Positions 33,986 to 64,000 of a stretch of 64,000 nucleotides of DNA are shown piece by piece. Every line of letters starts with the position of its first letter. The stretch's first letter is position 1. The notes under the pieces are model-generated. The model ran no database searches, had not been told where the DNA came from, and was given only the letters and a program-made list of their open reading frames with translations. The position numbers and the translations under genes were made by a program. Source of the DNA: a virus; IMG/VR virus record IMGVR_UViG_3300042261_001117, positions 25,277 to 89,276 of that record; one strand, written 5' to 3'.

Positions 33986-34651
33986 ATGACCGGCAGACAC
34001 GCAGGACCAGACGGGAAGAAGCGCGCGACCAGCAAGGAGAAGAAGACCTCGCCACGACTTGGCAAGCCTGGGCCGCACATCACCGTCGACCTCGCGCTCT
34101 ACCGCAGGGCGTGGGAGATCTACAAACTGCGGCCGTACCCGAACGCGATCTACGAGGGCATCCCGGAGATCGGGCGCACGTACGCGAAGCAGCTTGTCGA
34201 GCGCGGCGTGCCGGAGATTGGGCTGCCGCCGCTCTCGATCAAGATGCAGGTCGCGATGTCGTTGGCCACGCAGATGGACGTGGACGAGGCCGCGCAGTCG
34301 GTGGCGGTGGGGCGCAAGGCGCTTCGCACCGCGCTGCGCGCGATGCTGCTGCGCATCGATCAGGTGGTGTCGTCGCCGACCGAGCTAGCGCGGCTGTCGC
34401 CCGCCGCGTGCATCGCGCTGATCCCGAAGTCCGTCGAGTTGAACGAGAAGCTGTCGAAGCCGACCGATGAACTGACGATGGACGCGCTGAACCAGTTCAA
34501 CGACGGCGTCACGGACGTGCTGGGAGGCCTGTTCGCGTCGCTCCGCGACATCGCTGCCAAGCGTCTACCCAAGACGCCCGACGCCGCGAAGATGAACGCC
34601 ACCACGCCCGAGCGGCTCGACAAGCTGGAGAAGACCGGGGCCCTCGAATGA
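33986..34651 (+). CDS. terS: Terminase small subunit
   Basis: 221 aa from the ATG at 33986; upstream in-frame codons precede the promoter -10 and are rejected. Basic N-terminus (PDGKKRATSKEKKTSPRLGK), then an HTH-like region (AIYEGIPEIGRTYAKQLVER). The rest is helical with an acidic-to-basic end. It overlaps terL by ATGA, the typical terS-terL order. It should bind the packaging site and load the large subunit. Assignment rests on context plus the HTH. Confidence 0.7.
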   Translation: MTGRHAGPDGKKRATSKEKKTSPRLGKPGPHITVDLALYRRAWEIYKLRPYPNAIYEGIPEIGRTYAKQLVERGVPEIGLPPLSIKMQVAMSLATQMDVDEAAQSVAVGRKALRTALRAMLLRIDQVVSSPTELARLSPAACIALIPKSVELNEKLSKPTDELTMDALNQFNDGVTDVLGGLFASLRDIAAKRLPKTPDAAKMNATTPERLDKLEKTGALE

Positions 34652-44663: not shown

Positions 44664-44950
44664 GGTTCGTGCGGCGCGGTGGCGACGAGGTGTCGCACGT
44701 GCAGTTGGTCGCGTTCAACCGCACCAACTGGAGCGAGAGCGAAGCGGAGTCGTGGATGCTGAACCGCGACCTCGCGACTGATGGCGGGTCGACGGCGGAG
44801 GACTGGCTGCTCTACCCGCAGGGAGAGAAGGACGAGACGCGGTACGACTACCGCGATCTGGTGCTGTCGCGCGTGGGTGGGCTGCCCGACGTGCGCGTGG
44901 TGATCGGCGTGCCCAACGGGCGCGCGATGCAACTCGGAAGGAGGCGGTGA
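44660..44950 (+). CDS. Small unknown protein
   Basis: 96 aa; ATGA overlap. SHVQLVAFNRTNWSESEAES and RYDYRDLVLSRVGGLPDVRV. Not recognised. Confidence 0.5.
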   Translation: MRFVRRGGDEVSHVQLVAFNRTNWSESEAESWMLNRDLATDGGSTAEDWLLYPQGEKDETRYDYRDLVLSRVGGLPDVRVVIGVPNGRAMQLGRRR

Positions 44951-45570
44951 TGCCCCAGGTGATCGAGATCGGGAAGCGCGGAGGGAAGATCGTTGGGCAT
45001 CGCGGCGGGAAGCCGGTGTACGGTGGCGACACGCCCACCGCTCCGGCCAAGCGCTCGTCTCCGACTGACGCCACGTTCGCCAACGACGACGTGAAGAAGA
45101 AGTACGGCGAGCACGTGAAGAAGATCCACGGTCTGCTCGACAAGATCGGACCGAAGATCGCGGAGACCGGCAACGACGTCCCCGCCGATTCGCACAAGTG
45201 GACCGGCGACCTGCACCACGCCAACGAGATGCTCGCGGAGGCCTCGTCGCACGTGGGCGCGGGAGACGGCACATACGAGGAGCCGTACCACCCCGGGCAG
45301 TCCGGCGCGGAGCGCCGCGCGCTGCACAAGAAGAACGCCGCGTCGGCGATCGGCAAGCTCCACGACGCGGTCGACAGCTTCCACCGCGGCAGCAATGACA
45401 ACCGCGTCGACTACGGGCACATCGGATCGCTCAGCGAGACGCGGAACCACCTGCAGAACCTCCACGACCAGTTGCACGGCGAGGGGCAGTACGCACCGCG
45501 GCGCGAGCCCCGCATGGTGCCGAGCGCGACGAAGAAGCCCGCGGCCATCGACAAGCTGCTCAAGGTGTAG
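44950..45570 (+). CDS. GKRGGKI-tagged helical protein
   Basis: 206 aa; TGATG overlap. Begins with the tag VIEIGKRGGKIVGHRGGKPV, shared with the proteins at 45898 and 51222 and, in variant form, 48787 and 53015. The rest is a His-rich helical domain (HVKKIHGLLDKIGPKIAETG, NHLQNLHDQLHGEGQ). It carries no RAMA-like module. Possibly a virion-packaged protein, by analogy to its tag-sharing neighbours. Confidence 0.6.
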   Translation: MPQVIEIGKRGGKIVGHRGGKPVYGGDTPTAPAKRSSPTDATFANDDVKKKYGEHVKKIHGLLDKIGPKIAETGNDVPADSHKWTGDLHHANEMLAEASSHVGAGDGTYEEPYHPGQSGAERRALHKKNAASAIGKLHDAVDSFHRGSNDNRVDYGHIGSLSETRNHLQNLHDQLHGEGQYAPRREPRMVPSATKKPAAIDKLLKV

Positions 45571-45897: not shown

Positions 45898-47922
45898 GTG
45901 CCGCACATCGTTGAGATCGGGAAGCGCGGCGGCAAGATCATCGGCCGCAAGCCGGATGGCACTCCGATCTACGGCAAAGAGGGCCCCGACCGACAGCCAG
46001 CCGCGCAGGAGCAGCCCGGCGGTGAGCGGAAGCCCGCGCAGCAGGAACCGCCGAAGCGCGTGCGTGACGCACGACTGCCCGCGCAGGGCGTGCAGATGCG
46101 CGGGCGGTACAAGGGTGCCATGGGCGTGCTGGTCGAGAACGTCGACGGCACGTTCACGCTTTCGGTGGATGGCCAGCGCCACGGCGTCTACAAGAGCCCG
46201 AGCAGCGCGGCCAGTGCGTGGTTCGGAAGCGCTCAGAATGGCTTCCGGGTGTTCGGCATCCTCAACGCGAAGCCGGAGCCCGGTCCGAAGCCCCCCGAGC
46301 CCGAGCCTCCGAAACCCACGTGGCCACCGAAGCCCGTCGATCCTCCGAAGCCTCCGGTCCCGCCGGTCAACCGCGACGCGCGGCTGCCGAAGTCCGGCGA
46401 CTCGCGTGTGCGGCTGTGGAACGGATCGAAGGTCGCGGTCATCTTCGGCGAGGGCAGCGAGGTCGAGATCGAGGTCGACGGGAAGTCGCGCGGGAAGTTC
46501 AAGAGCATCTCCGCCGCGGCCAGTGCGATCACGGGCTCGGCGCAGAACGGGTACCGGTGGTTCGGGCTGGGCGGTGGCGAGAAGCCGCCGAAGCCGAAGC
46601 CGAAACCCAAGCCGACGCCGCCCACTCCGCCAAAGCCGCCGGAACCGAAGCCGATCGAGCCGGTCAAGCCGCCAGAGCCACCGAAGCCTCCGGAGCCGCC
46701 CGAGCCGAAGTCGGAAGCGTCGCAGGCCGAGTACAAAGCCGCGTGGTCGGTCGCGTCCGGCGCGAGCGCCGCGGCGTGGCGCGCGCAAAAGGGCGTCAAG
46801 AAGTCGCTGCCGCTCGAGCAGCAGATCGCGGCGCACCAGTCAGCGATCGACGCGTTCAAAAAGGCCAAGGACGAGTGGGAGAAGGTCGCTGCCATTGCGC
46901 GCAAGCTCGGGCTCGACAAGCAGGCCAAGTGGGCGGACCAGGGTGCGAGCGGATCGCAGTCGAGCATCTCGAGGAACCTCAAAGCCATCGAGAAAGCGAA
47001 GGCGCTGGACCACGTGAAGTCCGATGCGTCCACGACGCCGGTCGACACCTCCGCGCTACCGACGCTGGACGCGCTGCTATCCAGCCCCAGCGACGCGATG
47101 CTCGAAGGACTGCACGACTACACGAAGAAGCTGCTGGCGGCGTTCGGTGCGAGCGACGGGAAGATGGACGACGTCGCGGTGGAGCGCGCGGTGCAACAGT
47201 CGAAAACGATGTCGTCTGATATTGAGGCTACGTGTAAGCGCATTCACGATGGCATGCCGTCGATGCCAGAGAACTTCAAGATGGGCCTTTCGCACAGCGG
47301 TGTGGAGGGCTCGAACGCGCACATGAAGCTGCACAACGAGCTAATGAAGCGCTCGCAGTCGCAAGTAAACTTTTCGTCAGCAATGCTCACGCATCTGAGG
47401 CCAGGACATACGATCAGCGTCGAACTAACCGCGCCGCATGTATTTAGCAACGGAACCACATCGTACAATTACGGGCGTGCAAGCTGTCTATTTGAGAATC
47501 GGTTTCAATCCGTGATGAAGCTTGCTCCTGGCGACCCAAAAAAGTACGTGATCGTTCACGAAGCTGGCCACGCACTCGAGGGCGACGCCGGTTCTGGCGA
47601 TAGGCTGTCGCGCATCCAGACGCTGGCTACTAAGTACCGGAGATGGCAGTCGAATCGCACGAACAACAGCGGCATCACCGGCCACGTCGATCTGATCGGC
47701 ATGCCCGGCGAAAAGCGGCTGCGCGGCAAGTTCATCGACCCGTACGCCGCGAAATACTACGATCACGGTCACACGGAGATCGTCTCCATGGGGCTGGAGA
47801 TCTGGCACGAAGGCGGCGCTCGCCTCCGCAAGATGATCCGCGACTTCCCCGAGCACTACGCGATCATCCACGCGCTGGTCAGCGAGGCGCACAAGAAAGC
47901 GACGGCAGGAGGAACCACGTGA
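45898..47922 (+). CDS. Modular protein: tag, two RAMA/DUF2924-like modules, zincin metallopeptidase domain
   Basis: 674 aa from a GTG with TAGGAGGG upstream. Order: tag HIVEIGKRGGKIIG (3-16); module 1 (about 55-121, RDARLPAQG to NGFRVFGI); Pro-rich linker; module 2 (about 158-224, RDARLPKSG to NGYRWFGLG); long Pro/Lys/Glu linker; helical region; C-terminal zincin. The zinc motif HEAGH is at 554-558, with Glu in HTEIVSMG near 626 as likely third ligand. Around 47200-47640 the DNA is visibly AT-richer than the 5' part, suggesting the peptidase part was acquired. Architecture resembles phage polyvalent proteins. Target unknown. Confidence 0.75.
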   Translation: MPHIVEIGKRGGKIIGRKPDGTPIYGKEGPDRQPAAQEQPGGERKPAQQEPPKRVRDARLPAQGVQMRGRYKGAMGVLVENVDGTFTLSVDGQRHGVYKSPSSAASAWFGSAQNGFRVFGILNAKPEPGPKPPEPEPPKPTWPPKPVDPPKPPVPPVNRDARLPKSGDSRVRLWNGSKVAVIFGEGSEVEIEVDGKSRGKFKSISAAASAITGSAQNGYRWFGLGGGEKPPKPKPKPKPTPPTPPKPPEPKPIEPVKPPEPPKPPEPPEPKSEASQAEYKAAWSVASGASAAAWRAQKGVKKSLPLEQQIAAHQSAIDAFKKAKDEWEKVAAIARKLGLDKQAKWADQGASGSQSSISRNLKAIEKAKALDHVKSDASTTPVDTSALPTLDALLSSPSDAMLEGLHDYTKKLLAAFGASDGKMDDVAVERAVQQSKTMSSDIEATCKRIHDGMPSMPENFKMGLSHSGVEGSNAHMKLHNELMKRSQSQVNFSSAMLTHLRPGHTISVELTAPHVFSNGTTSYNYGRASCLFENRFQSVMKLAPGDPKKYVIVHEAGHALEGDAGSGDRLSRIQTLATKYRRWQSNRTNNSGITGHVDLIGMPGEKRLRGKFIDPYAAKYYDHGHTEIVSMGLEIWHEGGARLRKMIRDFPEHYAIIHALVSEAHKKATAGGTT

Positions 47923-48482
47923 AGCCCGAACACCTCGCGCTGGCGCTGCGGGTCAAGACCGGGCTGCCGTTCCAGCCGGACGCCATCCACCCCGGCGCGG
48001 TGCACTTCTGCCCGCGTACCGGCGAGACGTTCTTGCGCGTCTGGCCGGACGACGGATGCTACGTGGTGCAGGCGTTCATCGCATCGGAGCAGCGCTCTGT
48101 TGCGAAGTCGCTGGACGAGGTTCCGGACCTGATCGGCACGACGCTCGCGCGATCGATGTCGCGGGAGCACCACGGCGTCACTGTGGTCGCGGACGCGCTG
48201 GCGAAGGACATCGACCAGCGCGTGGCGGAGCGGCTGCTCGGTCGCGGGGCCCGCGTGGACCGGCTCGAAGACCTGGGAGACGGGTTCCTGACGTACGACA
48301 TCGTCGGCGTCGGGACGTGCAGACTGCGGCGCAGCGACAGCGGGCGCTCGGTGACGAGCGCGGAGTTCATGCCAGACGCGACGGACAAGTTCGAAGCGGA
48401 GAAAGACCTGGGCGGCATGACGCCCGAGCAGGCAGCGGACTGGATCGCGTGGCGGGCAGTGGCACCGCGCATCAAGGGGTGA
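47919..48482 (+). CDS. Unknown protein
   Basis: 187 aa from a GTG overlapping the previous stop. Beta-rich (AVHFCPRTGETFLRVWPDD) with helical middle. It could be an immunity or chaperone partner of the zincin protein by position, but there is no sequence support. Confidence 0.5.
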   Translation: MKPEHLALALRVKTGLPFQPDAIHPGAVHFCPRTGETFLRVWPDDGCYVVQAFIASEQRSVAKSLDEVPDLIGTTLARSMSREHHGVTVVADALAKDIDQRVAERLLGRGARVDRLEDLGDGFLTYDIVGVGTCRLRRSDSGRSVTSAEFMPDATDKFEAEKDLGGMTPEQAADWIAWRAVAPRIKG

Positions 48483-48485
48483 GCG

Positions 48486-48776
48486 ATGACTTGCATCCTG
48501 CGGGTGGAAGGCGACGTGGTGGTCACGCTGCACGTGCCCGGCAAGACGTGGGCGGAGATCGCCGATGCGGATCGCGCGGGGCGCGTGACGTGGGACGGCA
48601 ACGAGTCGCTCATCGAGCGTGCGCGCAGCCTGCGCCCGTACGTGGCCGCGTGCCGCTCGTCGGCTCAACTGCAGTCGCTCTGCAACGAACTGAACTACGG
48701 CGGCATCAACGCCGCGATGACGGTCGCGGACGCACCGCCCGCTCTGCCCGCGTACCCGCCCGAGGTGGTCGCGTAG
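48486..48776 (+). CDS. Small unknown protein
   Basis: 96 aa. ILRVEGDVVVTLHVPGKTWA then helical and Pro-rich end. Not recognised. Confidence 0.5.
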   Translation: MTCILRVEGDVVVTLHVPGKTWAEIADADRAGRVTWDGNESLIERARSLRPYVAACRSSAQLQSLCNELNYGGINAAMTVADAPPALPAYPPEVVA

Positions 48777-48786
48777 GAGGTGCCCG

Positions 48787-49119
48787 ATGCGCGCGGTGAT
48801 GAAGGTCGGGCCCCGCGGCGGGCAGATCGTCGGCTACCAGCACGGCGACATCACGAAGCCGATCTACAAGCGCGGCGATGACGGCACTATCGCCCCGCAC
48901 CCGCTCGAGCGGAACTCCAGCGAGTGGGTCTACGACCTCGAGCACGATCGGTACTCGCTCTACCGCGACGGCAACACCGTCCTGGTCTGGAGCAAGAAGG
49001 AGTGGCGCGACGACGGGCCTGTCACCATGCATCGGATCAAGATCGAACTCCCGGACGGAACTGCAGCGCACAACGCGCTCTGGTCGACAACGGCGGGTGC
49101 TCCGAAGCCTACACCATGA
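48787..49119 (+). CDS. Small protein with GPRGGQI-type tag
   Basis: 110 aa; AGGAGG precedes the ATG. Residues ~5-28 hold VMKVGPRGGQIVGYQHGD, matching the internal tag of the protein at 53015. The remainder is beta-rich (SEWVYDLEHDRYSLYRDGNT). The tag alone does not give a function. Confidence 0.55.
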   Translation: MRAVMKVGPRGGQIVGYQHGDITKPIYKRGDDGTIAPHPLERNSSEWVYDLEHDRYSLYRDGNTVLVWSKKEWRDDGPVTMHRIKIELPDGTAAHNALWSTTAGAPKPTP

Positions 49120-49394
49120 AGACGTACTCGAGCCTTAACGTCGACGAGTCGGCAAGCTCGGAGGTGATCTCCATGGGCATGCAGCGGATCGTGGGCGAGT
49201 GGGGGCTCGAGCAGCCCGGCGTCAGCCCGAACGACGTGGCGCGTCGGCTCACGAAGGACTGGGAGCACTTTGCGATGGCGGACCTCGTCATCGAGCATGC
49301 GCTGCACCGGGCGAAGGCATCGGGCAGGCTGCAGCCGACGAAGCGTGGGCGATCGGTCGAGAAGTCCGTGCGCTTCGTGGCGACGGTGGCGTGA
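49116..49394 (+). CDS. Small unknown protein, HTH-like
   Basis: 92 aa; ATGA overlap. QPGVSPNDVARRLTKDWEHF followed by MADLVIEHALHRAKASGRLQ looks like a winged-helix-type arrangement. Weak evidence. Last gene before the portal promoter. Confidence 0.45.
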   Translation: MKTYSSLNVDESASSEVISMGMQRIVGEWGLEQPGVSPNDVARRLTKDWEHFAMADLVIEHALHRAKASGRLQPTKRGRSVEKSVRFVATVA

Positions 49395-49401
49395 GCGCGG
49401 G

Positions 49402-49430
49402 TTGTGCGCGCACGTGAGATCGGGTACGAT
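49402..49430 (+). promoter_or_regulatory. sigma70-like promoter for portal gene
   Basis: TTGTGC (49402-49407), 17 bp, TACGAT (49425-49430), then GAGGAGG and the ATG at 49457. Confidence 0.65.
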
Positions 49431-49456
49431 TCCGCACTGACGCGAGGAGGGATCAC

Positions 49457-51205
49457 ATGGCGAGGCGCGGGCGAGGCGCGGGCATGGGCGGTGCTGCTCC
49501 GCGGCGATCCGGAGCGGCGATCCAGCACCTGCGCCAGCAACAGAACCTCCAGCAGTCGCAGATCCCGCACGAACCACGCGACGTCGACGAATCCCAGGCG
49601 CTGCTCTTTGACCCGGACACGCTTCGCGAGTGGCACGAGGTGCTCGAGGCCACGCGCACGCACAGCCAGTTCGGCGTCTACGCGCTGAAGCAGATCGCGC
49701 GCGCGCCCGGCGTCCAAGCCATCGTCAACACCCGGCTCAACCAGCTAGCGAACTTCTCCAGGCCTCGCGAGGACAAGTACGGGACCGGCTTCCAACTGGT
49801 GACGCGCGAGGCGAAGCGCTCGCCGACGAAGCAGGAGAAGCTCCGCGCCCGCGAGATCACGAAGATGATCCAGACGTGCGGCTCGTTCGACAAGCCGTAC
49901 GAGCGCTTCCAGCGCAAGCACTTCGACGTGTTCCTGCAGGAGTGCGGGCGCGACTCGCTGGTCCTCGACGTGTTCCCGTTCGAAGTCATCATGGACCGGC
50001 GCGACAAGTACCCGCGCTGGTGGCAGCCCGTCGACGGCGCGAAGATCTTCCGCGTCATCCCTCAGAACCCCTACGGCAACTACAGCCCGACCGACGCCGC
50101 GTACGTGCAGCGGTGGCAGGACCAGGACGTCGCGTGGTGGGCGATGGACCAGTTGTGCTGCGGCGTGCGCCGCAGCCGCACCGACATGGAAAGCCAGGGG
50201 TACGGCTACCCGGAACTCGCAGAGTGCCTCGAAGTCGTCACCGGAATGCTGGTGGGCTGGGCCTACAACTTCAAGTTCTTCCAGAACGGCGGGCCCCGCG
50301 GCGTCGTGAGCGTCAACGGCGAGATCGCGAAGAAGAAGCTGCTGGCGTTCCAACGGCAGATGCTGTGGGCGGCGAGCGGGCTGAAGAACGCGTTCCGTAC
50401 GCTGATCGTGAACCCGTCAGGCCCGAACGCGTCGATCAACTGGGTGCCGTTCGGCGTCCCGAACAAGGAGATGGAGTTCTCGTCGTGGATCGACTCGAAC
50501 TTCCGCATGCTGTGCGCGGTGTTCGGCATCGAGCCCGACGAGACAGGCTACCACTACGGCAACGGCACCGGGCAGAAGGCGCTGTTCGAGACGTCGCCGG
50601 AGGCCAAGCTCAAGTACGGGAAGAGCAAGGGGCTGAGCCCGTTCCTTCGCAAGATCGAGTTCTTCCTGAACCAGTACATCGTGTGGCGGCTCGAGAACGG
50701 CGAGGACTTCGAACTGCAGTTCCTCGGCGACGGCGCCATGAGCGAGAACGAGCGTGCGGACCTCGACGAGAAGCTGGTGCGCAGCACGCACACCATCGAC
50801 GAGGTGCGCGCGGAGCACGACCTCCCGCCGCTGCCGGACGGCAAGGGCGAGTTCATCCTCAACCCGACGTACTACCAGATCGCGGTGGGCGTGGATCAGG
50901 CTGCGCAGGGCGGCATGGGCGGTGGGATGGACGGGCAGGGCGGATCGCCCGGCCAGGACGCCGCAGGTGGCGCGCAGGACGGGCAGAACGGCGCGGGAGA
51001 GCAGGGCGGTGGCGGTGACGCAGCGGGACCGGACCTCGCGACGGACTGGGGCGACGCTGGCGCGTCGGTGCCGGAGCACGACTGGGAAGGAGCGGCGGGC
51101 GGTGCGATCGGCGCCGGTGGTGGCGATGCTGCGAAGGCCGTCGCTGCGCCGTCAAACGTAGTTGACAAACGCGCTGGGCTGCGCAGAGTCACGGTCGTAG
51201 CCTGA
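49457..51205 (+). CDS. Portal protein
   Basis: 582 aa. Blocks GYGYPELAECLEVVTGMLVG, WAYNFKFFQNGGPRGVVSVN, WVPFGVPNKEMEFSSWIDSN and AVFGIEPDETGYHYGNGTGQ are typical of HK97-type portal proteins. The C-terminal ~90 residues are Gly/Gln/Asp-rich and likely flexible. It forms the dodecameric ring at the capsid vertex through which DNA is packaged by TerL. The MuF-like gene lies ~4.3 kb downstream, separated by modular proteins. Confidence 0.92.
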   Translation: MARRGRGAGMGGAAPRRSGAAIQHLRQQQNLQQSQIPHEPRDVDESQALLFDPDTLREWHEVLEATRTHSQFGVYALKQIARAPGVQAIVNTRLNQLANFSRPREDKYGTGFQLVTREAKRSPTKQEKLRAREITKMIQTCGSFDKPYERFQRKHFDVFLQECGRDSLVLDVFPFEVIMDRRDKYPRWWQPVDGAKIFRVIPQNPYGNYSPTDAAYVQRWQDQDVAWWAMDQLCCGVRRSRTDMESQGYGYPELAECLEVVTGMLVGWAYNFKFFQNGGPRGVVSVNGEIAKKKLLAFQRQMLWAASGLKNAFRTLIVNPSGPNASINWVPFGVPNKEMEFSSWIDSNFRMLCAVFGIEPDETGYHYGNGTGQKALFETSPEAKLKYGKSKGLSPFLRKIEFFLNQYIVWRLENGEDFELQFLGDGAMSENERADLDEKLVRSTHTIDEVRAEHDLPPLPDGKGEFILNPTYYQIAVGVDQAAQGGMGGGMDGQGGSPGQDAAGGAQDGQNGAGEQGGGGDAAGPDLATDWGDAGASVPEHDWEGAAGGAIGAGGGDAAKAVAAPSNVVDKRAGLRRVTVVA

Positions 51206-51221
51206 GTCGTCGGAGGGTTCC

Positions 51222-52772
51222 ATGCCGCACGTGATCGAGATCGGGAAGCGTGGGGGGAAGATCGTCGGGCACCAGTCGGACGGGACGCCGATCTACGGGA
51301 AGGACACGCCGGACCACCAGCACACCGAGGCTCACCGCGCGTCGCATCGTGAGTGGAAGACGCGCTGGGAGTCGCGCGGCGCTGGGCGGTTCAACCAGAA
51401 GGTCGTCGAGCGTCGCGCAGACGAGCCGGTGCACGGCGCTGTGTTGCCCGGCAACTGGGACACGGACGGATCGCACAAGTTCGGGCAGCGCATCAGCGAG
51501 CACATCGACTACGCGGGGCACCGCCCGGTCACGAAGTACATGCTGCGGTCCGGAGCAACCAGCGACGACATCTACGGAACTCGCGCGTGGGACTTCAGTG
51601 GGCTGCACCATGGCGCCACGCACGAGAGCATCCACGACACCATCGACGAAGCGCAGGCCGCGGCGGACAAGCACGCGAAGAAGTGGGAGGCGGAGCACGC
51701 CAAGCGCGTCGCGGAGCATGCCAAGACCTCGAGCGCACGGAACGCGCGGCTCGAGAACGCGGGGACGCACTCGCACGAAGCGGTCGAAGGCGCTCGGATC
51801 AAGCTCGTCAAAGACGTCGCCAACGACGTCAAACTTGCAGTGTATCAAGTGGTCGATCATCCTGAGATCGAGGAGTTTTCGCACACGAATGGGCACCCGG
51901 GCGTTACGATCCACTGGCGCGACTGGGATTTCCCAAAAGACGAGTACGACGAGTCCGGCCACAGCCAGGATGAGCGCTTCGCGAAGAAGCGCAGCGCGAT
52001 CATGGACGCACTGAAGAAGTCGTTTGGCGCCAAGCTTGCGGACGTCGACGTCCAGATCTACCGCGGCGACAAGAACTACTTCGAAGCGTCGGTGGAAGCG
52101 AAGCCCCACGGCGAGTTCGGCATGGACAAGCCCGCGCCGGGATCGACGCCCACGCCGAAGCCGCCGGTCGAGGTGAAGAAGCCCGCGGACGTCGGGACGA
52201 AGCCGCCGGAGCGTGGCGACGCCCGCGAGAAGTACGAGTCGCTGAAGACCAGCGCTCAGGAAGCGGAAAACGGCGTCGAAGCCGCGTACAAACGTGGCGA
52301 CAACGCGGAGGCCTCGCGGTTGCACAAGAAAGCCGCGCACCTCTTCGGTCAGGCGGCGGCGCACAACGCGGACCACGCGGTGGGCACGACTGCGGAGCGC
52401 AAGCTGCTGGAGAGCGCCGCGCAGCACCACCACGCGGTGGCAGATGACGCGGCGCGCAAGGCGGCGGAGAAACCCGCTCCGAAGCCGGAACCCAGGCCCG
52501 ACGTGAAGCCGCCCGAGCCGAAGCCCGAGCCAAAAAAGACCACGTCGCTCTCGGTCGGTCGCGACCCCCGGCTCCCCGACAAGGGCACCGAGGTCAAGAA
52601 GACGTGGCGCGGCAAGAACGTCGTCCTCGTCGAGAACGACAACGGCCAGTTCCACCTCTTCGTCGACGGCGCGGAGCACGGCGTGTACTCGAGCCCGTCG
52701 AAGGCTGCGAGCACGCTCATGGGCAGCCCGCAGAACGGCTACCTGTTCTTCGGGCTCAACAAGAAGGGGTAG
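51222..52772 (+). CDS. Modular protein: tag, unknown domains, C-terminal RAMA/DUF2924-like module
   Basis: 516 aa; GGAGGG precedes the ATG. Tag HVIEIGKRGGKIVGHQSDG at residues 3-21. A His/Arg-rich region follows, then at about 195-305 an alpha/beta domain (VVDHPEIEEFSHTNGHPGVT, DVDVQIYRGDKNYFEASVEA) whose DNA is locally AT-richer. Then comes a helical segment, and the module GRDPRLPDKG to NGYLFFGLN at ~446-514. Located between portal and MuF-like genes. A candidate TTGACA (51162-51167) inside the GTCAA/TTGAC inverted repeat lies upstream but lacks a clear -10. Confidence 0.7.
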   Translation: MPHVIEIGKRGGKIVGHQSDGTPIYGKDTPDHQHTEAHRASHREWKTRWESRGAGRFNQKVVERRADEPVHGAVLPGNWDTDGSHKFGQRISEHIDYAGHRPVTKYMLRSGATSDDIYGTRAWDFSGLHHGATHESIHDTIDEAQAAADKHAKKWEAEHAKRVAEHAKTSSARNARLENAGTHSHEAVEGARIKLVKDVANDVKLAVYQVVDHPEIEEFSHTNGHPGVTIHWRDWDFPKDEYDESGHSQDERFAKKRSAIMDALKKSFGAKLADVDVQIYRGDKNYFEASVEAKPHGEFGMDKPAPGSTPTPKPPVEVKKPADVGTKPPERGDAREKYESLKTSAQEAENGVEAAYKRGDNAEASRLHKKAAHLFGQAAAHNADHAVGTTAERKLLESAAQHHHAVADDAARKAAEKPAPKPEPRPDVKPPEPKPEPKKTTSLSVGRDPRLPDKGTEVKKTWRGKNVVLVENDNGQFHLFVDGAEHGVYSSPSKAASTLMGSPQNGYLFFGLNKKG

Positions 52773-52777
52773 ACCAC

Positions 52778-53011
52778 GTGCGCGTCACGCTCGAAGAGGA
52801 CCACCCCGGAGAACTCGACGCCTGCGACGCGGTCGAGAAGGCGATCACCGCAGTGCGGAAGGCGGTCCCTGACCACCACGCGGCGGAGGAAGCCGAGCAG
52901 TCGAAGTACCAGTTGATGCGGTCGGAGCAGGCGGATGCGGAGCAGCGGGCGCACGCGCGGCTGCAGCGCATGGTGGCGGACGTGGAGCGGGTGCTGCGCA
53001 GGATGAGGTGA
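52778..53011 (+). CDS. Small helical protein
   Basis: 77 aa from a GTG. Highly helical, acidic then basic (AEEAEQSKYQLMRSEQADAE, RMVADVERVLRRMR). Not recognised. Confidence 0.5.
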   Translation: MRVTLEEDHPGELDACDAVEKAITAVRKAVPDHHAAEEAEQSKYQLMRSEQADAEQRAHARLQRMVADVERVLRRMR

Positions 53012-53014
53012 GCG

Positions 53015-55528
53015 ATGAAGCTGGTGTTGCACCGCGCGGAGAAGTCGCTGGACGTCGGCGCGCGCCCCACGACGAACCTGACTGGCACTGTCGAGGTGCC
53101 GCGCACCACGCACCCGGTGCTGGTGCAGCCGCCGAAGAAGAAGCGGCGCGAGCACGCGTTCACGGGCTTCATCGACTTCCAAGGGCTGAAGATCGACGTC
53201 GAGAACCGCCTGGGCGAGACGCGCTCGGGCGTCGACGGCGACGGGAAGCCGTGGTCGACGGAGATGGTCGCTGGGCACTACGGCGAGATCAGAAACACCG
53301 AGGGCACGGACTCCGACGCACTCGACGTGTACGTGGGGCCCAACCACGACTCGTCGCTGGTGGTGGTGATCCATCAATTCGATCCGCAGACCGCAGAGTA
53401 CGACGAGGACAAGTGCATGCTCGGTTACGACTCGGTCGAGGAAGCGATCGGCGCGTACAAGAAGCAGTACGACCGACCGGGCTTCTATCACGATGGCGAG
53501 TACGAAGCGCTGCCGATCGGTGCGTTCTGGCGCTGGGTGCACGACGGGCGGAAGCGCGGGTTCAAGATCGACGCGGAGAAGCTCGTCGGCGGTCGCGCGG
53601 ACGGGATGACGGACGCGGACTTCGACGCGGACGCGCTCGCCGCGGGCACGAAGCACGAGCGTGAGCACACGAACGACGAGGCGACCGCGCGGGAGATCGC
53701 GCGTGACCACCTTGCAGAGGACCCGGCCTACTACACGAAGCTGGCCAAGATGGAGGCGACCATGGGCGACGCGGACAAGAGCATCCACGTGGGGGCGCGC
53801 GATGAGGTCGCCAAGAGCCAGACGATCGTGAAGGTGGGGCCGCGGGGCGGCCAGATCATCGGCTACTTGCATGGCGACGAGAAGCATCCGATCTACGCGG
53901 AGCGTGGCGCTCACGTGGCGCCGCACCCGAGCGTCGCCAACGCGGGCGGCTGGTCGCAGCACTTCGTGGAAGGCGACGACCGACCGCACCACGTCTTCGT
54001 CCCGCACCACGATTGGGTTCGCAAGCTGCAGGTCGGAGACACCGTGCCCGACCCGATGAACCCAGGCAAGGTGACGACGGTCAGCGACATCCACTATCGT
54101 GGCGAGGACAAGCACGGCGCTCCGTACGTGGGCTTCTCCGTGCCGTTCGGCGACCGCGGGACCATCTCGTCGTCGTTCAAGGGCGGGAAGCCCGAGGCTG
54201 GCCCCGGCAGCCCGCTGCTGTCGGAAGACCTGAGCAAAGAGGGCGCGCGTGTGCGCCGTGACGCTGGCATCCCGACGCCTGCGATTGAGCACCACGACGT
54301 GTGGGCGGACAGTGCAATCGCCAACGAGCAGCGGGTGGTACAGCCCGCGCCGGAGCCGGATCCCGTCGTGCAGCCCGGCCCGGTTGTCCAGCCGGTCGAG
54401 ATCGCCAAGCCCCCCGTCGACGTCGGCCGCGACCCCCGGCTGCCCGCGCCCGGCACCACCATCTCCCGCGAGTACCAGGGCAAGCGCGTGGAGGTCGTCG
54501 AGCGGGACGGGAAGTTCCACGCGTCGATCGACGGCGCGGACGCGGGCGTGCACACGTCGCTCTCGAAGGTCGCCACCTCGATCGCGGGCTCGAGCCAGAA
54601 CGGCTACGCGTGGTTCAAGCTCGGCGCCGGGCAGAAGCGTGCGGCGGTGGAGAAGCCGGAGCCTGCGGTTGTTCCTGTCGCAGTGAAACCACGCGGCGTC
54701 GACGTGCAGAACATCGGCGGGTACTCGTTCGACGCTGCGGACGCCACGCGAGACGCTGGCACCAAGACGATGCACAGCGCGATGAAGAACGGCCACACGG
54801 TTCACCTGCACCACGACGGAGACAACTGGGTCGCCACCGCCCGCGGCAGGGACATCACCGCCACGCACGAGCACTCGACGCAGGACGGCGCGGTGCTCGG
54901 AGCGTCGAAGAAGTGGCACGATGCGCATGCGCAATCCCAGCGTGATGCCACCGCAGAAGACGCGCGGCGCGAGCTTGTGCAGCGTCAGACCGCGGATCAT
55001 GCGCATGCAACGAAGCGCGTCGACCCTGCGCCGATCACCAACGCGGAACTGGCGGAAAAGTACGCTGGTGCGTTCAAGAACTCGCGCGATCGTGGCACAG
55101 AACTTGTTCGTTCGCAGTACATATCCGGACGGGAAAGCCTCCGGCCGCATCATGGCGTGACCGACACTGGAGAGCCGTACGTCATTTACGCGACGAAGGA
55201 CAGCGGCCACGTCACGCACAAGGGCACTGTCATCCGCAATCCCGCCAAGTCGTGGCACACAGGGAGGATCAACGTCGCGTGGCCGACGCGCAGCAATCCG
55301 AACAACTTCGGGGGCATGGTTATCGACCGCGTCTACGACAAGACGGTACTCGGCGAAGACGACGCCAAGATTCGTCAGCACGACTACGCGCTGGCTGACA
55401 AGTATGATGCGATCATCGACGCGCTTAAGAGCGGTAAGCATCCATACGATGCGTCCAAAGCTCGCGCCAAGTCCGCTCCGAAGCCCGTCGAGAAGTCCAT
55501 CTTCATCGGCCCGCGCCCCACGGAGTAG
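53015..55528 (+). CDS. Modular polyvalent-type protein: InPase-like domain, tag, RAMA/DUF2924-like module, variable C-terminus
   Basis: 837 aa. Residues ~45-195 match the phage inorganic-pyrophosphatase-like domain: FQGLKIDVENRLGETRSG, GHYGEIRNTEGTDSDALDVY, VIHQFDPQTAEYDEDKCMLG. A helical segment follows. At ~271 comes the tag IVKVGPRGGQIIGYLHGDEK, then a beta domain, the module GRDPRLPAPG to NGYAWFKLG (~471-540), a region with GGYSFDAADATRDAGTKTMH, and a C-terminal ~150-residue domain coded by AT-richer DNA. InPase-like domains are a hallmark of polyvalent proteins in phages. Enzyme activity is not proven by the motif set. Confidence 0.75.
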   Translation: MKLVLHRAEKSLDVGARPTTNLTGTVEVPRTTHPVLVQPPKKKRREHAFTGFIDFQGLKIDVENRLGETRSGVDGDGKPWSTEMVAGHYGEIRNTEGTDSDALDVYVGPNHDSSLVVVIHQFDPQTAEYDEDKCMLGYDSVEEAIGAYKKQYDRPGFYHDGEYEALPIGAFWRWVHDGRKRGFKIDAEKLVGGRADGMTDADFDADALAAGTKHEREHTNDEATAREIARDHLAEDPAYYTKLAKMEATMGDADKSIHVGARDEVAKSQTIVKVGPRGGQIIGYLHGDEKHPIYAERGAHVAPHPSVANAGGWSQHFVEGDDRPHHVFVPHHDWVRKLQVGDTVPDPMNPGKVTTVSDIHYRGEDKHGAPYVGFSVPFGDRGTISSSFKGGKPEAGPGSPLLSEDLSKEGARVRRDAGIPTPAIEHHDVWADSAIANEQRVVQPAPEPDPVVQPGPVVQPVEIAKPPVDVGRDPRLPAPGTTISREYQGKRVEVVERDGKFHASIDGADAGVHTSLSKVATSIAGSSQNGYAWFKLGAGQKRAAVEKPEPAVVPVAVKPRGVDVQNIGGYSFDAADATRDAGTKTMHSAMKNGHTVHLHHDGDNWVATARGRDITATHEHSTQDGAVLGASKKWHDAHAQSQRDATAEDARRELVQRQTADHAHATKRVDPAPITNAELAEKYAGAFKNSRDRGTELVRSQYISGRESLRPHHGVTDTGEPYVIYATKDSGHVTHKGTVIRNPAKSWHTGRINVAWPTRSNPNNFGGMVIDRVYDKTVLGEDDAKIRQHDYALADKYDAIIDALKSGKHPYDASKARAKSAPKPVEKSIFIGPRPTE

Positions 55529-55531
55529 CGC

Positions 55532-56434
55532 ATGCGCCTGACGCCCACCGACCTGCGCGAGATCCGCCAGATCATCGACGACCACTGGACGTCGTTGGTG
55601 GCGGAGACGTACGGGCCCGACGCGATCGGGCTGGCGGCGGCTGACGTGCAGCGGCTGGTGGACGCGGGCGTGCTGGACCCGAGCGTGTTGGGCACCAGCG
55701 ACCCGATCGGCGACGCGCGGGCGCTCGGGCTGGTGGAGACGCGGCTGAAGCTGTCGGGCATCGATCCTGCGCTGGCGACGGTGGAGCAGGTTCGCGCGGC
55801 GGCGCGCAACGCGGCACCGCTCATGCCGATCGAACAGGAAGCGGCGGCGTTCGCGCGGCAGTACGCTGCGCAGCATGCGGTCGCGCTGGGAAACAGAGTG
55901 GCGGATCAGATCCTGTCGGCGGTCAACGTGGAGGACGCGACGCTCCGCGCGCAGATGCTAACCACGATCCGCACCAAGACAGCGGAGGCGATCGAGACGC
56001 GGGCGAGCATCTCCAAGCTCACGAGCAGCCTCCGCAACGCGACCGGCGACTACGCGCGCGACTGGCGCAGAATCGCGGCGACGGAGATGCAGCGGGCGCA
56101 CCAGCATGGGGTGGCCACTTCGATCGCGCGCGACCTTGGCGACGGCGGGAAGAAAGACCCGCTGGTGGCAAAGATCCCGACGCCCGCGGCATGCCCGCGC
56201 TGCCGCGACCTGTACACCGAAGGCGGCAAGCCGCGCATCTTCCGCCTCAGCGAACTCATGGCGAACGGCGAGAACGTGGGGCGGAAGGCGAAGGAGTGGC
56301 TGCCGACGGTTGGGCCAATTCATCCAGCGTGCATGTGCGGCATGGTCAGCGTACACGAAGGCTGGTCGTTCGACGACGACTGGTCGCTCCGCCCGCCCGA
56401 GCCCGTCGCTCCTGCCGAACCCGTGGCGCCATGA
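55532..56434 (+). CDS. MuF-type head morphogenesis protein
   Basis: 300 aa. Helical N-terminal two thirds, then RIAATEMQRAHQHGVATSIA, CPRCRDLYTEGGKPRIFRL and VGPIHPACMCGMVSVHEGWS, the conserved core and Cys/His ending of the SPP1 gp7/Mu gpF family. These minor capsid proteins bind the portal and are found inside the virion. The short Cys-containing gene after it overlaps by ATGA. Confidence 0.88.
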   Translation: MRLTPTDLREIRQIIDDHWTSLVAETYGPDAIGLAAADVQRLVDAGVLDPSVLGTSDPIGDARALGLVETRLKLSGIDPALATVEQVRAAARNAAPLMPIEQEAAAFARQYAAQHAVALGNRVADQILSAVNVEDATLRAQMLTTIRTKTAEAIETRASISKLTSSLRNATGDYARDWRRIAATEMQRAHQHGVATSIARDLGDGGKKDPLVAKIPTPAACPRCRDLYTEGGKPRIFRLSELMANGENVGRKAKEWLPTVGPIHPACMCGMVSVHEGWSFDDDWSLRPPEPVAPAEPVAP

Positions 56435-56845: not shown

Positions 56846-58435
56846 GTGGGCCAGCAGCGGCACTTCAGCGACGATCCCGGCATCCAGGCACTCGCCGAGG
56901 CGATGTACTGGCGTGGAGCGCCGGAGTCCCGCGTGGTCAGCTACGCGGAGACGCTGAAGGACGTCGGCGTCGGCGCGGGCGAGATCGTGGACTGGGCGGA
57001 GGTGTTCGTTCCGACCGTCGCGATCGAGACGGTCGCGAAGGGCGTCGCGGCTCCTACCACGAAGCGTGGCGGCAAGATCCTGGCCACCGTGCGCGGCATC
57101 GCCACCAGCGAGCGCAAGGATCTGCAGGGCGAGAAGATCCTGCAAGACGGCGTCGACTGGCGCTACTTCCTGGCCAAGGGGTGGCTCAACGACGTGCACG
57201 ATAAGGGCACGGGCGGCGGGCTCGGCTACCCGACGACGATCAAGCACACGAAGGTCAAGGGCAAGGACGGCGTCGAGCGCCCCGCGACGGAGTTCGAGGG
57301 CGTGCTGCTCGACACGCAGAAGTCCCGCGACATCCTCGATCTGTACAAGGCGCTGGACGGGCACGACCGTGCGATCGGATCGAGCATCCAGGGTCCGGTG
57401 ATCCTGCGGCTCGACGACACGGGGAACCCCGCGGAGAAGGGCAAGACGATCGCGAAGATGCTGGCGATCGACCTGTCGCTCACGAGGCACCCGGTCAACG
57501 TGGACACGTACGGGTCGGTGGACCTGTGCGAGAAGAGCATCGACGCGCTGGGGCGCAAGCTCCGGTTCGCGATGAGTGCGGACAGCGCGGCGAAGGACAC
57601 CACTGCCGGTCACCCCGCGCCCACGTACGACGGTGGCGGCTCCGCCGCGCCGTTGTTCCGGCAGGATCACAACAGGAGGCCGAGCATGAAGCGGGCGGTG
57701 TGCAAGGACGCGAACGTCCAGAAGTACCTGGACGGGCTGAAGGACGACGACTACGACAACGCCGCCAAGGCCATGAAGGCCGCCGGTGTGCAGTTCGACG
57801 ACGGCGCGGACGACGAGCCCGACAACGACAAGGACGACGCGGAGAAGGCGCTGGCGGAGTACGACGCCAAGCTCGCGGCGGCCATGGCGGACGTCAAGGA
57901 CCACCTCGAGAAGGGCGGCAAGATCCTCTTCGCGGAGGGCGCCGAGGCCGAGGCCACCGTCGACACCACCGGCACGCTGCGCACCGTGCACGACACGCTG
58001 CAGCAGGTCGTGAGCGGCATCAACGGCATCGCGAAGGGCATGGTCCTGCTCGCGAAGTACGCCGAGGTGGCGAAGGGCATCCAGTCCGGCGCCACGCCCG
58101 CGCAGCCCGTCGACCTGAGCGGCGTCGAGAAGTCGCTCGGCGCGCTGTCGGAGCGGCTCGAGTCCATCGAGAAGGATCTCGGCGGCGCGACGGTCAGCCG
58201 CTTCGTTCGGCGCCCGGCGGACGGCTCGGTGGCGCAGCCCGGCGGCGCGCCCGGCAAGGTCGACCAGAGCAAGGTGCGCGACGCGGCGTTCCGCGAGTTC
58301 TCGCGCGCGGAGCGCATCGCCGACGACGCGGAGAAGTCGATCCGCATGGACGAACTCGCCGCGATCTTCAACAAACTGGACACGGGCATCGAGGTCACCG
58401 CGAAGGACCTCACGCAGTTCAACGTGACGCTGTAG
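56846..58435 (+). CDS. Capsid maturation protease / scaffold fusion
   Basis: 529 aa from a GTG preceded by GGGGG. Residues ~60-250 look like a prohead protease domain (ILATVRGIATSERKDLQGEK, GVLLDTQKSRDILDLYKALD, AIDLSLTRHPVN). Residues ~275-500 are helical and acidic, as in scaffolds (DEPDNDKDDAEKALAEYDAK, LSERLESIEKDLGG). The C-terminal ~50 residues (AAFREFSRAERIADDAEKSI) could be the capsid-binding end. Location directly before the major capsid gene supports this. Catalytic residues were not pinned down. Confidence 0.7.
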   Translation: MGQQRHFSDDPGIQALAEAMYWRGAPESRVVSYAETLKDVGVGAGEIVDWAEVFVPTVAIETVAKGVAAPTTKRGGKILATVRGIATSERKDLQGEKILQDGVDWRYFLAKGWLNDVHDKGTGGGLGYPTTIKHTKVKGKDGVERPATEFEGVLLDTQKSRDILDLYKALDGHDRAIGSSIQGPVILRLDDTGNPAEKGKTIAKMLAIDLSLTRHPVNVDTYGSVDLCEKSIDALGRKLRFAMSADSAAKDTTAGHPAPTYDGGGSAAPLFRQDHNRRPSMKRAVCKDANVQKYLDGLKDDDYDNAAKAMKAAGVQFDDGADDEPDNDKDDAEKALAEYDAKLAAAMADVKDHLEKGGKILFAEGAEAEATVDTTGTLRTVHDTLQQVVSGINGIAKGMVLLAKYAEVAKGIQSGATPAQPVDLSGVEKSLGALSERLESIEKDLGGATVSRFVRRPADGSVAQPGGAPGKVDQSKVRDAAFREFSRAERIADDAEKSIRMDELAAIFNKLDTGIEVTAKDLTQFNVTL

Positions 58436-58475: not shown

Positions 58476-59924
58476 ATGGACACTCAGTTCGCAGATCGCG
58501 ACGTGCTGAACGGCGGCTTCCCGTCGACGGAACTCATGAGCATGTACCAGCAGGTCATGAAGGACATCATGGCCGGTCACCCGGTGCCCGGGTACACCGG
58601 CGGCGGCGCGCTCGGCCCGCTGATGCTGCAGGACATCTCCGGCACGCTGAGCGTCGCCGGGTACAAGACGAAGCACATCAAGTTCTGGCCGCGCGTCCAG
58701 AAGGCGCCCGACAAGCTGCACAACACCGTGCACGAGTTCACGCGCCAGCGCGACTACGGCGACGACCTGCCGTTCTACACGGCAGAGGGCGGCATCGGGC
58801 CCCGCGTCGACGTGTCGATCGAGAGGCTGTTCGCGAAGTGCCGGTTCATGAGCCACATCCGCCGCGTGTCGCACGCAGCGGGGCTCATCAACCCCATCAT
58901 CGGCCCGGCCAAGGACGCCGTCGAGAAGGCCAACTGGGACGCGTCCCGGTGGCAGCTTCGGCAACTCGAGCGCGGCCTGTTCTTCGGCGACTCGACCACG
59001 AACCCCGAGTCGATCGACGGGCTCAAGCACGCGTGCGAGATCGAGGGCAACGTCTACGACATGCAGGGCGCGGCCATCGACACCGACGCGCTCTACAACA
59101 TCACCGTGACGCTGATCCAGAACAAGTTCGGCGACCCCGACGCGATCTGGATGGACTACACGGCGAAGCAGGACCTCGCCAAGGTCTTCCACAACTACGT
59201 CAAGTACGACATCCAGCCCGGCGTGACCGCCGCCAACATCAACGGCGGTGTCAACGCGATCGGCCTGATCGGGCCCGAGAAGCTCGTCAAGTTCGAGCCG
59301 AACGTGTTCCTGGCGCCGGACGGCGCGCCCAGCGACACCGCGCTCGGCGCCGACCAGCCCGCGACGCCCACGATCAAGGTGCAGCCCGCGGCCACGGGCG
59401 ACGCCGCGTCGAAGTTCAACAGCGACGACGAGGGCAACTACTACTACAAGGTGGTGGCGTTCGGTTCCACCGGCGACAACGGCGGCGTGACCGGGTGCAG
59501 CGCGCCCGTGACGTCGAGCGTGGTCGCGGTGACCGAGGGCGACAAGGTCGCGCTGACGATCACGAAGCCCGGCAGCGACAGCGTGGTGTTCTACCGCGTG
59601 TACCGCACGAAGCCCGGCGGCTCGGTGTACTACAAGGTGTTCGACGTGCGGCAGTCGTACTCCGAGGGCGCGGTCGCCGACACGGTCATCACCGACTACA
59701 ACGAGTACCGGCCCGACACCACGACCATGTTCGTCGTCGAGCACGACCCCGAGATCTTCATCTGGCAGCAGTTGATGGGCTTCACCCGCATCCCGTTCGC
59801 GATGACCGAGCAGACGGGGCTGAAGCAGCCGTTCGCCTACGTGCTCTACGGCATGCTCGAGGTGATGGTCCCGTCGAAGATCTACATGATCAAGAACGTC
59901 GGGCGCGAGGTCGTGACCCTGTAG
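58476..59924 (+). CDS. Major capsid protein with internal Ig/FN3-like domain
   Basis: 482 aa; GGAGGACCC precedes the ATG. HK97-like features: N-terminal helical arm, GLFFGDSTTNPESIDGLKHA, DPDAIWMDYTAKQDLAKVFH, and a C-terminal strand region (AYVLYGMLEVMVPSKIYMIK). Between ~300 and 425 lies an inserted beta domain (GNYYYKVVAFGSTGDNGGVT, VVFYRVYRTKPGGSVYYKVF) resembling Ig/fibronectin type III folds that decorate capsids. Coded in the strongly G/C-ending codons expected of a highly expressed gene. Confidence 0.85.
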   Translation: MDTQFADRDVLNGGFPSTELMSMYQQVMKDIMAGHPVPGYTGGGALGPLMLQDISGTLSVAGYKTKHIKFWPRVQKAPDKLHNTVHEFTRQRDYGDDLPFYTAEGGIGPRVDVSIERLFAKCRFMSHIRRVSHAAGLINPIIGPAKDAVEKANWDASRWQLRQLERGLFFGDSTTNPESIDGLKHACEIEGNVYDMQGAAIDTDALYNITVTLIQNKFGDPDAIWMDYTAKQDLAKVFHNYVKYDIQPGVTAANINGGVNAIGLIGPEKLVKFEPNVFLAPDGAPSDTALGADQPATPTIKVQPAATGDAASKFNSDDEGNYYYKVVAFGSTGDNGGVTGCSAPVTSSVVAVTEGDKVALTITKPGSDSVVFYRVYRTKPGGSVYYKVFDVRQSYSEGAVADTVITDYNEYRPDTTTMFVVEHDPEIFIWQQLMGFTRIPFAMTEQTGLKQPFAYVLYGMLEVMVPSKIYMIKNVGREVVTL

Positions 59925-62442: not shown

Positions 62443-63236
62443 GCGCAGAAGTAGAAGCGCCGTTCACGCGGGAAGACCTGCTGCTGGCGTTCCGCGCCAC
62501 GCGTGCGGACCTGTCTGCGTGGGTGGCGCAGGTGGCGTGGGACGCTCACCGCCAACTGACAACGCTGGCCCAGCAGCGGCTCAAGACGTCGCTCCGCGAC
62601 TACCAAGAGGGCATCCAGCCGGTGGTCGAGAACGGCATGAGCGCGTCGTTCTCGCTGGTGGGCTGGCTGCCGAACGCGGTGGAGTGGGGCTGCGAGCCGT
62701 ACGACATGCGGACGACGCTGCTGCACGGTCCGAACGCGCAGGTCGTTCCGCGTGGGCAGCCCGGCATCCACGATGGCAAGAAGGGGCGCTACCGGTCGAT
62801 CCCGTTCCGCCACTACACGCCGGGATCGAGTGGGTACGAGGGTTCGGTTATGGGGATGCCGTACGAGCAGATGCTGGGGCCCGACGCCGCGCGGAAGCTC
62901 GGGCAGCAGGTCTACAATACGATGCGAGCGCGAGTGGCCGCAGCGAAGGCGAGCGGCTCCGCAAAGACGGTGCGTCTGCCAGCGTCTGCCGGTGGCCCGC
63001 TGCTTCGCCCGCACCACTCGACCGGCATCTACACCGGAATGGTCCGTCCGGAGCGCGCGTACAAGGGCACAACGCAGGGCTTCTACCAGACGTTTCGCAC
63101 CATCTCGGACGGCAACCCGGTGGGGTGGATGCACCCGGGCATCGAGCCGCAAGGGCTGATGATGGCCACGGTGTCGTACCTCGAGCAGACGGCGGGAGCC
63201 ACGCTCGTGGAGATCATGACCGCAGGTGACGCATGA
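62439..63236 (+). CDS. Tail completion / neck protein
   Basis: 265 aa; ATGA overlap. Helical start (LLLAFRATRADLSAWVAQVA), then beta-rich region (FSLVGWLPNAVEWGCEPYDM) that resembles HK97 gp10-type neck proteins. C-terminus RTISDGNPVGWMHPGIEPQG is the conserved box of that group (SDG.P..W.HPG). Connects head stopper to tail. Confidence 0.65.
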   Translation: MSAEVEAPFTREDLLLAFRATRADLSAWVAQVAWDAHRQLTTLAQQRLKTSLRDYQEGIQPVVENGMSASFSLVGWLPNAVEWGCEPYDMRTTLLHGPNAQVVPRGQPGIHDGKKGRYRSIPFRHYTPGSSGYEGSVMGMPYEQMLGPDAARKLGQQVYNTMRARVAAAKASGSAKTVRLPASAGGPLLRPHHSTGIYTGMVRPERAYKGTTQGFYQTFRTISDGNPVGWMHPGIEPQGLMMATVSYLEQTAGATLVEIMTAGDA

Positions 63237-63925
63237 ACGACGGCGTCGACAAGATCGTGGCGGACTACCTCGAGCGCGTGAAGGTCACGCTGCTGACCGA
63301 CGACGCGCTGTGGACGCGACTGCTTGGACGATCGCTCGACGCAGCGACGATCGCTGTGGTGCGGGACTCGTTCCGCGGTGCGAAGGAGCACGTGGCCACG
63401 CCCACGGTGGTGCTGGCGTACCCGCGCAGCCGCCAGCCGTGGCCCGTGTGGTGCGTGGTCCTGCTCGAGGACACACCCGACGAGGAACTGCTCGGAGAGA
63501 GCGAAGGCATCGAGCGTGACGACGAGACCGGCGAGGACGTCGAGGTGCAGACGATCGTGAGCCGCCAGACGGTGGCGATCATGGTCATCGACAATCGCAA
63601 CCCCGACATCGCTCGGTGGCAGTCGATGCTGGTGAAGCGCGCGATGATGATGGGGCTCGACGAGATCCTCAGCGACGAGGAAAACTCCGTCAGCGGGATG
63701 TACTTCAGCGGCATGGGCGACATGCCGCCGATGCCGTGGCTGCCGGAGGAACTGTACGGGCGCACGCAGCGGTGGTCGTTTGTCGTCGCGGAGAGCGTCG
63801 CGAGCGGCTACGACGGGCTGGTGCGCGGGCCTCTGTACGTAGGAGCGGAAGGCTTCGTCCTCGACGAGGATGGCGAGGTGACCGGCGGTGGGCACGCGTA
63901 CAGCGCCCGCGAGGACGAGGAGTAG
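63233..63925 (+). CDS. Tail terminator-like / neck protein
   Basis: 230 aa; ATGA overlap. N-terminal helix, then beta strands VVLAYPRSRQPWPVWCVVLL, SRQTVAIMVIDNRNPDIARW, and a helical segment (LVKRAMMMGLDEILSD). Fits the fourth neck gene, which caps the tail tube in sipho/myophages. Assignment by position. Confidence 0.55.
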   Translation: MNDGVDKIVADYLERVKVTLLTDDALWTRLLGRSLDAATIAVVRDSFRGAKEHVATPTVVLAYPRSRQPWPVWCVVLLEDTPDEELLGESEGIERDDETGEDVEVQTIVSRQTVAIMVIDNRNPDIARWQSMLVKRAMMMGLDEILSDEENSVSGMYFSGMGDMPPMPWLPEELYGRTQRWSFVVAESVASGYDGLVRGPLYVGAEGFVLDEDGEVTGGGHAYSAREDEE

Positions 63926-63935
63926 GCGCCGGGGC

Positions 63936-63964
63936 TTGTGCCGAACCGGCGCTGTGGGTAGAAT
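63936..63964 (+). promoter_or_regulatory. sigma70-like promoter for the next (tail) genes
   Basis: TTGTGC (63936-63941), 17 bp, TAGAAT (63959-63964), followed by GGAGGG and an ATG at 63991. Confidence 0.65.
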
Positions 63965-63990
63965 CGAGCGGACACGCGGAGGGACAGGCC

Positions 63991-64000
63991 ATGCCGGAGC
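63991..64000 (+). CDS. Start of next gene (cut by window end)
   Basis: ATG at 63991 preceded by GGAGGGAC. Only the first residues (MPE) are visible. Expected to be a tail gene from its place after the neck genes. Confidence 0.5.

Follow-up and report, generated by a model that had tools for sequence, protein, structure and literature searches.

The stretch of DNA analysed here, referred to as the window, comprises 64,000 nucleotides (positions 25277-89276) of the 89,276-base virus record IMGVR_UViG_3300042261_001117; coordinates are those of the window unless they are marked as record positions. The two ends of the record (record positions 1-1354 and 87923-89276, the latter corresponding to window positions 62647-64000) overlap by 1,354 bases with 96.1% identity, and the record is therefore probably a near-complete genome. 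An overlap of this kind fits a genome that is circular or terminally redundant and was assembled from a mixed population. Four DNA methyltransferases are encoded, the number given by the first-pass annotation of this DNA: a D12 methyltransferase (14982), two ParB-N6/N4 methylases (18844-20292 and 20289-21614) and a Dam-like methyltransferase (38806), this last one recognized by PHROG alone, with a Pfam match below the cut-off. The two ParB-methyltransferase fusions are arranged in tandem with a four-base overlap. Positions 32886-33212 form an open reading frame (ORF) built of a GSGSGYGDG-type repeat (MDRVSGSGSGYGDGSGSGSG...).

The head genes follow the order terminase, many small genes, 44950, 45898, 48787, portal, 51222, 53015, MuF, head protease, and major capsid protein, numbers being start positions. 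All features given for this block lie on the plus strand. They include the genes of the terminase large subunit (34648-36405; phrog_5909, E 2e-48), the portal protein (49484-51205; phrog_12, E 8e-30), the head maturation protease (56846-58435; phrog_1028, E 5e-14), and the major capsid protein (58476-59924; phrog_752, E 2e-62). The MuF-like minor head protein (55532-56434) has a weak phrog_115 match, and is 61% identical to its counterpart in the nearest relative, L014, and 32-48% identical to those of other contigs. The 53015 gene, placed directly before MuF, encodes in one chain an InPase domain (PF18823; 53162-53539, E 9.4e-34), a DUF5661 stretch (53633-53755, E 2.3e-11), and the RGG peptide and module described below; it combines several unrelated domains and is encoded with virion genes, as polyvalent proteins are. 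InPase-type pyrophosphatase domains have been predicted in the literature to be packaged. The C-terminal part of the 45898 protein has no Pfam match and contains, by its sequence, a HEAGH zincin-like signature (47557-47571), and zincin-like peptidases are a recurring theme of polyvalent proteins.

Other repeated elements are found in the same block. The head protease (57593-57667) and the major capsid protein (58560-58634) have in common a 25-residue peptide, KDxTAGHPxPxYxGGG..., with 60% identity (E 1.4e-5); the sharing is also seen in L014, and the peptide is possibly a processing or assembly site. The motif (E/D)KS(I/L)xxG(A/P)R(P/D) appears in the 53015 protein at both ends and in the middle (53039-53068, 53774-53803, and 55490-55519) and several times between the domains of the L014 InPase protein, where it is perhaps a linker or a cleavage site. 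The 92-amino-acid product of 49116-49394 resembles the end of the 45898 protein by eye (SSEVISMG against TEIVSMG), with a BLAST match not significant at 0.01, and is perhaps a split or remnant copy of it.

Six copies of one short module are spread over five proteins of this phage. The 45898 gene (45898-47922) carries two of them (46063-46260 and 46372-46569), the 51222 gene (51222-52772) has one at its C-terminus (52560-52757), the 53015 gene (53015-55528) an internal one (54428-54622), and the gene at 976-2514 a fifth (1915-2130), all on the plus strand; the sixth lies outside the window, at record positions 21323-21532. The fifth copy starts at residue 314 of the 976 protein and is flanked by DUF6744 and a MarR-like winged-helix stretch; the description of this gene as early by its position is plausible. 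The first-pass annotation had reported five copies in four proteins, and all of them lie where it placed them. Its assignment of the modules to virion-region proteins holds for 45898, 51222, and 53015, which belong to the head block, but the other two module proteins are encoded elsewhere. The residues R, D, R, L, P, G, G, G, S, G, N, G, and F keep fixed places in every copy, in agreement with the start and end motifs first proposed, except that the first 45898 copy ends with FGI instead of FGL or FKL.

The module proteins match each other in self-BLAST with E values from 2e-6 to 1e-19, far beyond chance (about 1e-9 for the 976 copy). The copies themselves are only 37-53% identical to the 54413 copy. 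In two trees that included 98 non-redundant DUF2924 sequences, the six copies formed one clade (support 0.86 and 0.92), and for this reason they most likely descend by multiplication from a single ancestor. The four head-region copies are basic, with isoelectric points, in order of position, of 10.6, 9.9, 9.5, and 9.6, unlike the 976 copy (5.8) and the sixth copy (6.8). In the head-region proteins, linkers rich in proline and lysine lie beside the modules.

By Pfam, the module corresponds to the C-terminal half of DUF2924 (PF11149). The best match (E 2.5e-9) is that of the 45898 protein, in which residues 165-224 cover the second copy; the same protein, which holds the first copy as well, also has a sub-threshold DUF4357 match. 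The curated cut-off is reached by 45898 (38.0 bits) and barely by 53015 (31.3 against 31.2; E 2.8e-7), while the scores of 51222 (E 5.5e-6), the sixth copy and 976 (E 0.26) fall below it; all of them align with family members, and the 976 copy also aligns with the other copies. A profile-profile comparison of the six copies with 22 DUF2924 members gave P 3e-16, so that the DUF2924-like character claimed for the module is borne out by both methods. The matches span about positions 80-134 of the 135 of the family, and the N-terminal helical half, modelled as four helices in canonical DUF2924, is absent. With a consensus bait, 160 loci (L015-L174) encoding genuine members were gathered, the evidence being the database sequences returned. 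In 127 of the 160, the DUF2924 gene lies directly upstream of a large serine recombinase (one protein cluster, with one example confirmed by Pfam); adjacency of the two genes has also been noted in the literature for Wolbachia prophages. This neighborhood places the family among DNA transactions. DUF2924 itself may be an accessory factor of the recombinase.

The relationship to RAMA domains is more distant. The RAMA model (PF18755) finds nothing in any part of the record, even with the threshold relaxed to E 1. When DUF2924 and the modules were compared jointly with a profile of 31 non-redundant CcrM-type RAMA domains, P was about 5e-6 (score 33-34, against at most 25.6 in 100 column shuffles and 19.9 in 200), whereas the modules alone gave only P 0.006. 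The AlphaFold model of the module has a confident core of four strands and two helices. Foldseek returned no significant match of the module or of canonical DUF2924 to RAMA, to DNA-binding structures or to any other structure, and the module profile found no relative among solved structures. DUF4357 was considered as a bridge to RAMA, but the genomes searched yielded no member of it, and the control was equally without a match. According to the Pfam and profile-profile results, together with the null results for the RAMA model and Foldseek, the module is best described as a truncated DUF2924 domain that is probably a distant cousin of RAMA. The RAMA likeness first proposed thus persists as a remote link through DUF2924, and not as a Pfam or fold match.

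If this kinship is real, the conserved residues of the module suggest a role. In the RAMA domain of MPND, binding to DNA is nearly abolished by mutation of S113, of S115 or of W135, each of which contacts the backbone; these residues lie in the SPS and GCGW of the solved chain (the numbering being inferred from the construct). All six module copies have S/T-x-S, with threonine for the first serine in one copy, and NG-[YF]. DUF2924 members retain the serines of SxS and mostly have SGP at the last place. The search bait for MPND was a fragment, the evidence being the database sequence returned. Since the direct alignment with MPND is not significant, the correspondence between SxS/NG-[YF] and the MPND contact residues is to be taken as a lead. 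DNA attachment would be the likeliest role of the module.

A second element distinguishes the head block. Five of its proteins have in common a 27-residue RGG peptide of pattern xIG(K/P)RGG(K/Q)I(I/V)G...(P)IY. It is N-terminal in the products of 44950-45570 (44950-45027), 45898 (45898-45978; MPHIVEIGKRGGKIIG...PIYGK), 48787-49119 (48787-48870), and 51222 (51222-51302), and internal in 53015 (53816-53896), always on the plus strand. By tblastn the peptide was unconfirmed because the query is too short; a DNA-pattern scan of IMG/VR for the RGG core worked and gave 22 stretches (L220-L241), most of which contain homologues of the portal, MuF or InPase of the window. Since the pattern alone recovers these homologues, the RGG peptide is a marker of the portal/MuF/InPase head neighborhood. 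In L231, L236, and L241, MuF, InPase, the RGG peptide, and a head domain of poly(A)-polymerase/tRNA-nucleotidyltransferase type follow one another within single ORFs. The first 30 residues of P1 DarB are enough to direct a reporter to the capsid, which makes it a fair hypothesis, by analogy, that the RGG peptide is a candidate capsid-targeting tag; caution is advised by the internal copies, which differ from a simple N-terminal signal.

Relatives of this phage are scarce. Searches of IMG/VR with the portal, the capsid protein and module peptide patterns yielded almost no close relatives; the sole capsid relative was L014, whose capsid protein is 69% identical and whose InPase protein is without the module. 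Tblastn gave no match for the 45898 protein in phages or for the module in plasmids. Three loci returned by the module search (L011-L013) were discarded as carriers, the HMM giving no convincing module, and the only tblastn matches of the module in phages, from Corynebacterium, had an E value of about 2 and were taken as chance. None of the stretches fetched around the RGG matches contained the module. When the whole records behind 21 loci were searched, the module appeared on one 33-kb contig (record G237, L248), whose portal (45%), MuF (45-48%), protease (33%), and capsid protein (39%) are identical to those of the window to the extent indicated. On this contig, ahead of the portal and separated from it by ORFs with the RGG peptide, lies an ORF that extends over 1576 residues or more (L248:3-4730). 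Pfam finds in it a DUF2924 module (3.2e-14) and a ddrB-ParB domain (1.6e-18), besides a DarA_C match below threshold; the protein is incomplete, since the ORF reaches the contig edge. Its module (DPRIPPVGT...SRQNGLRFFGL) occupies a position intermediate between canonical DUF2924 and the copies of the window, of which it may be the sister, with a support of only 0.54. Another record, the 109-kb viral contig G226, has a DUF2924-like domain with a lysine-rich insertion at the end of a 358-amino-acid protein (L250:7512-8585) and also encodes an InPase-RGG-poly(A)-polymerase protein. The strongest reason to regard the association of the module with such proteins as more than a local accident is that the two occur together in two phages, packaged-type proteins being the partners in both.

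The reading that we tentatively prefer, with somewhat less than even confidence, is that a DUF2924 module binding the DNA backbone has been multiplied onto packaged and injected polyvalent head proteins that carry an RGG tag, in the manner of the P1 Dar proteins. Its computed starting points are the family, the copy number, the common origin, the head context, the RGG marker, and the ddrB-ParB module protein of the relative. One phage lineage would have multiplied a compact DUF2924-family module, distantly RAMA-like, onto several of its proteins. Three of them, the head-region polyvalent proteins, would probably be packaged and injected with the genome: entry into the prohead may be owed to the RGG peptide, attachment to the packaged DNA would come from the basic module, and the other domains (the pyrophosphatase, the zincin-like peptidase and parts of unknown nature) would act at the start of infection. 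That the module binds DNA, that the proteins are packaged and delivered, and what the RGG peptide does are our inferences. In favor of this reading are the DUF2924 match, the RAMA link above every shuffle, the recombinase neighborhood of the family, the retained SxS and NG-[YF], the basic head-region copies, the InPase-module protein next to MuF with its PB1-like counterpart, the head neighborhoods recovered by the RGG peptide, the ddrB-ParB module protein, and the P1 precedent. Against it stand the empty Foldseek searches, the P of only 0.006 for the modules alone against RAMA, the two copies that are neither basic nor in the head block, the InPase protein of L014 devoid of the module, the internal RGG peptides, and the lack of Dar domains in the proteins of the window. 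A broader version, which we consider rather doubtful, would be a standard kit for packaged effectors, in which an RGG prohead address of roughly 27 residues and one or two DUF2924/RAMA-like clamps allow a protein to enter with the genome and act on it in cis.

Other explanations have to be weighed against this one. The module might serve to position proteins in the head by docking onto other proteins or the scaffold, without contacting DNA, and its repetition beside the Pro/Lys-rich linkers of head-region proteins, as well as the lack of a fold match to a DNA-binding structure, are in line with this idea. However, docking in the head would not lead one to expect a copy in a winged-helix-bearing protein outside the head block, a family that adjoins serine recombinases, or head-region copies that are basic and retain SxS, and we regard this explanation as unlikely. 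It is also conceivable, though a little less so, that the module proteins are unpackaged, being late or intracellular DNA-associated proteins (active, for instance, in replication, packaging or the takeover of the host) that only happen to be encoded among head genes; two of the five are indeed encoded outside the head block, and DUF2924 proteins typically belong to cells or prophages and have a recombinase as their neighbor. Against this, the RGG peptide is tied to head neighborhoods, and the InPase protein adjoins MuF, while in other phages InPase is fused to the portal or to MuF. In PB1-like phages, the fusion is with the portal (765 amino acids) and stands directly before a 278-amino-acid MuF; virions of the PB1-like phage S1 contain minor head proteins of 84.5 and 31.7 kDa, which from their size and gene order would be the portal-InPase fusion and MuF. 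Least probable is the proposal of the first-pass annotation that the modules read DNA methylated by the four methyltransferases of the phage, so that packaged proteins attach only to their own modified genome: although RAMA, to which the module is distantly linked, has been called a modified-base reader in the literature, the complexes of CcrM and MPND RAMA with DNA are reported to show backbone contacts without base contacts, with no effect of 6mA on MPND (PMC9963953), the RAMA model finds no match, and canonical DUF2924 adjoins recombinases rather than methylases. Recognition of methylated bases by the module is therefore unsupported. The tethering role proposed with it went in the right direction insofar as a putative DNA-attachment module sits on head-region proteins, but its dependence on methylation finds no support.

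How a phage selects the proteins that it packages and keeps them with its DNA has, to our knowledge, been worked out in few cases, such as T4 with its internal proteins and P1 with its Dar system. Under the preferred reading of a DNA-holding module on packaged proteins, a portable clamp and the RGG peptide would help to predict packaged effectors from sequence, and a function would be suggested for DUF2924, a family without one. If the broader kit were true, the RGG peptide would be a capsid-targeting tag common to a wide range of phages, and DUF2924 would be a family of DNA clamps.

Compared with canonical DUF2924, the module shares the pattern PGTxLxRxW/YxG...SLS...G...NG/SG..FFGL but has NG-[YF] in place of SGP and is inserted in multi-domain phage proteins, with six copies in one phage; the window copies are not directly followed by a serine recombinase and sit in head-region and other multi-domain genes. 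With RAMA (PF18755; CcrM 6PBD, MPND 7YDT), the core can be aligned by profile-profile comparison, and SxS and the NG-aromatic fall at the DNA-contact places of the profile alignment; unlike RAMA, the module is devoid of the RAMA N-terminal part, and the fold search gave no confirmation. In PB1-like (Pbunavirus) phages, as here, InPase immediately precedes MuF within the head operon, but in the window InPase is separate from the portal, on a protein that also bears the RGG peptide and the module. A further parallel is the Dar system of phage P1 (DarA, DarB, and DdrB), whose proteins are packaged, co-ejected with the DNA, and protect it, and more generally the polyvalent proteins (Iyer et al., 2017), in the survey of which DUF2924 does not occur. 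The module proteins of the window have no Dar domain (DarA or ddrB-ParB) by Pfam and their pieces are divided among several genes, in contrast to P1; nevertheless, both systems have large multi-domain proteins encoded with the head genes and a short shared peptide as a possible capsid signal, and a ddrB-ParB domain occurs in the module protein of the relative, L248.
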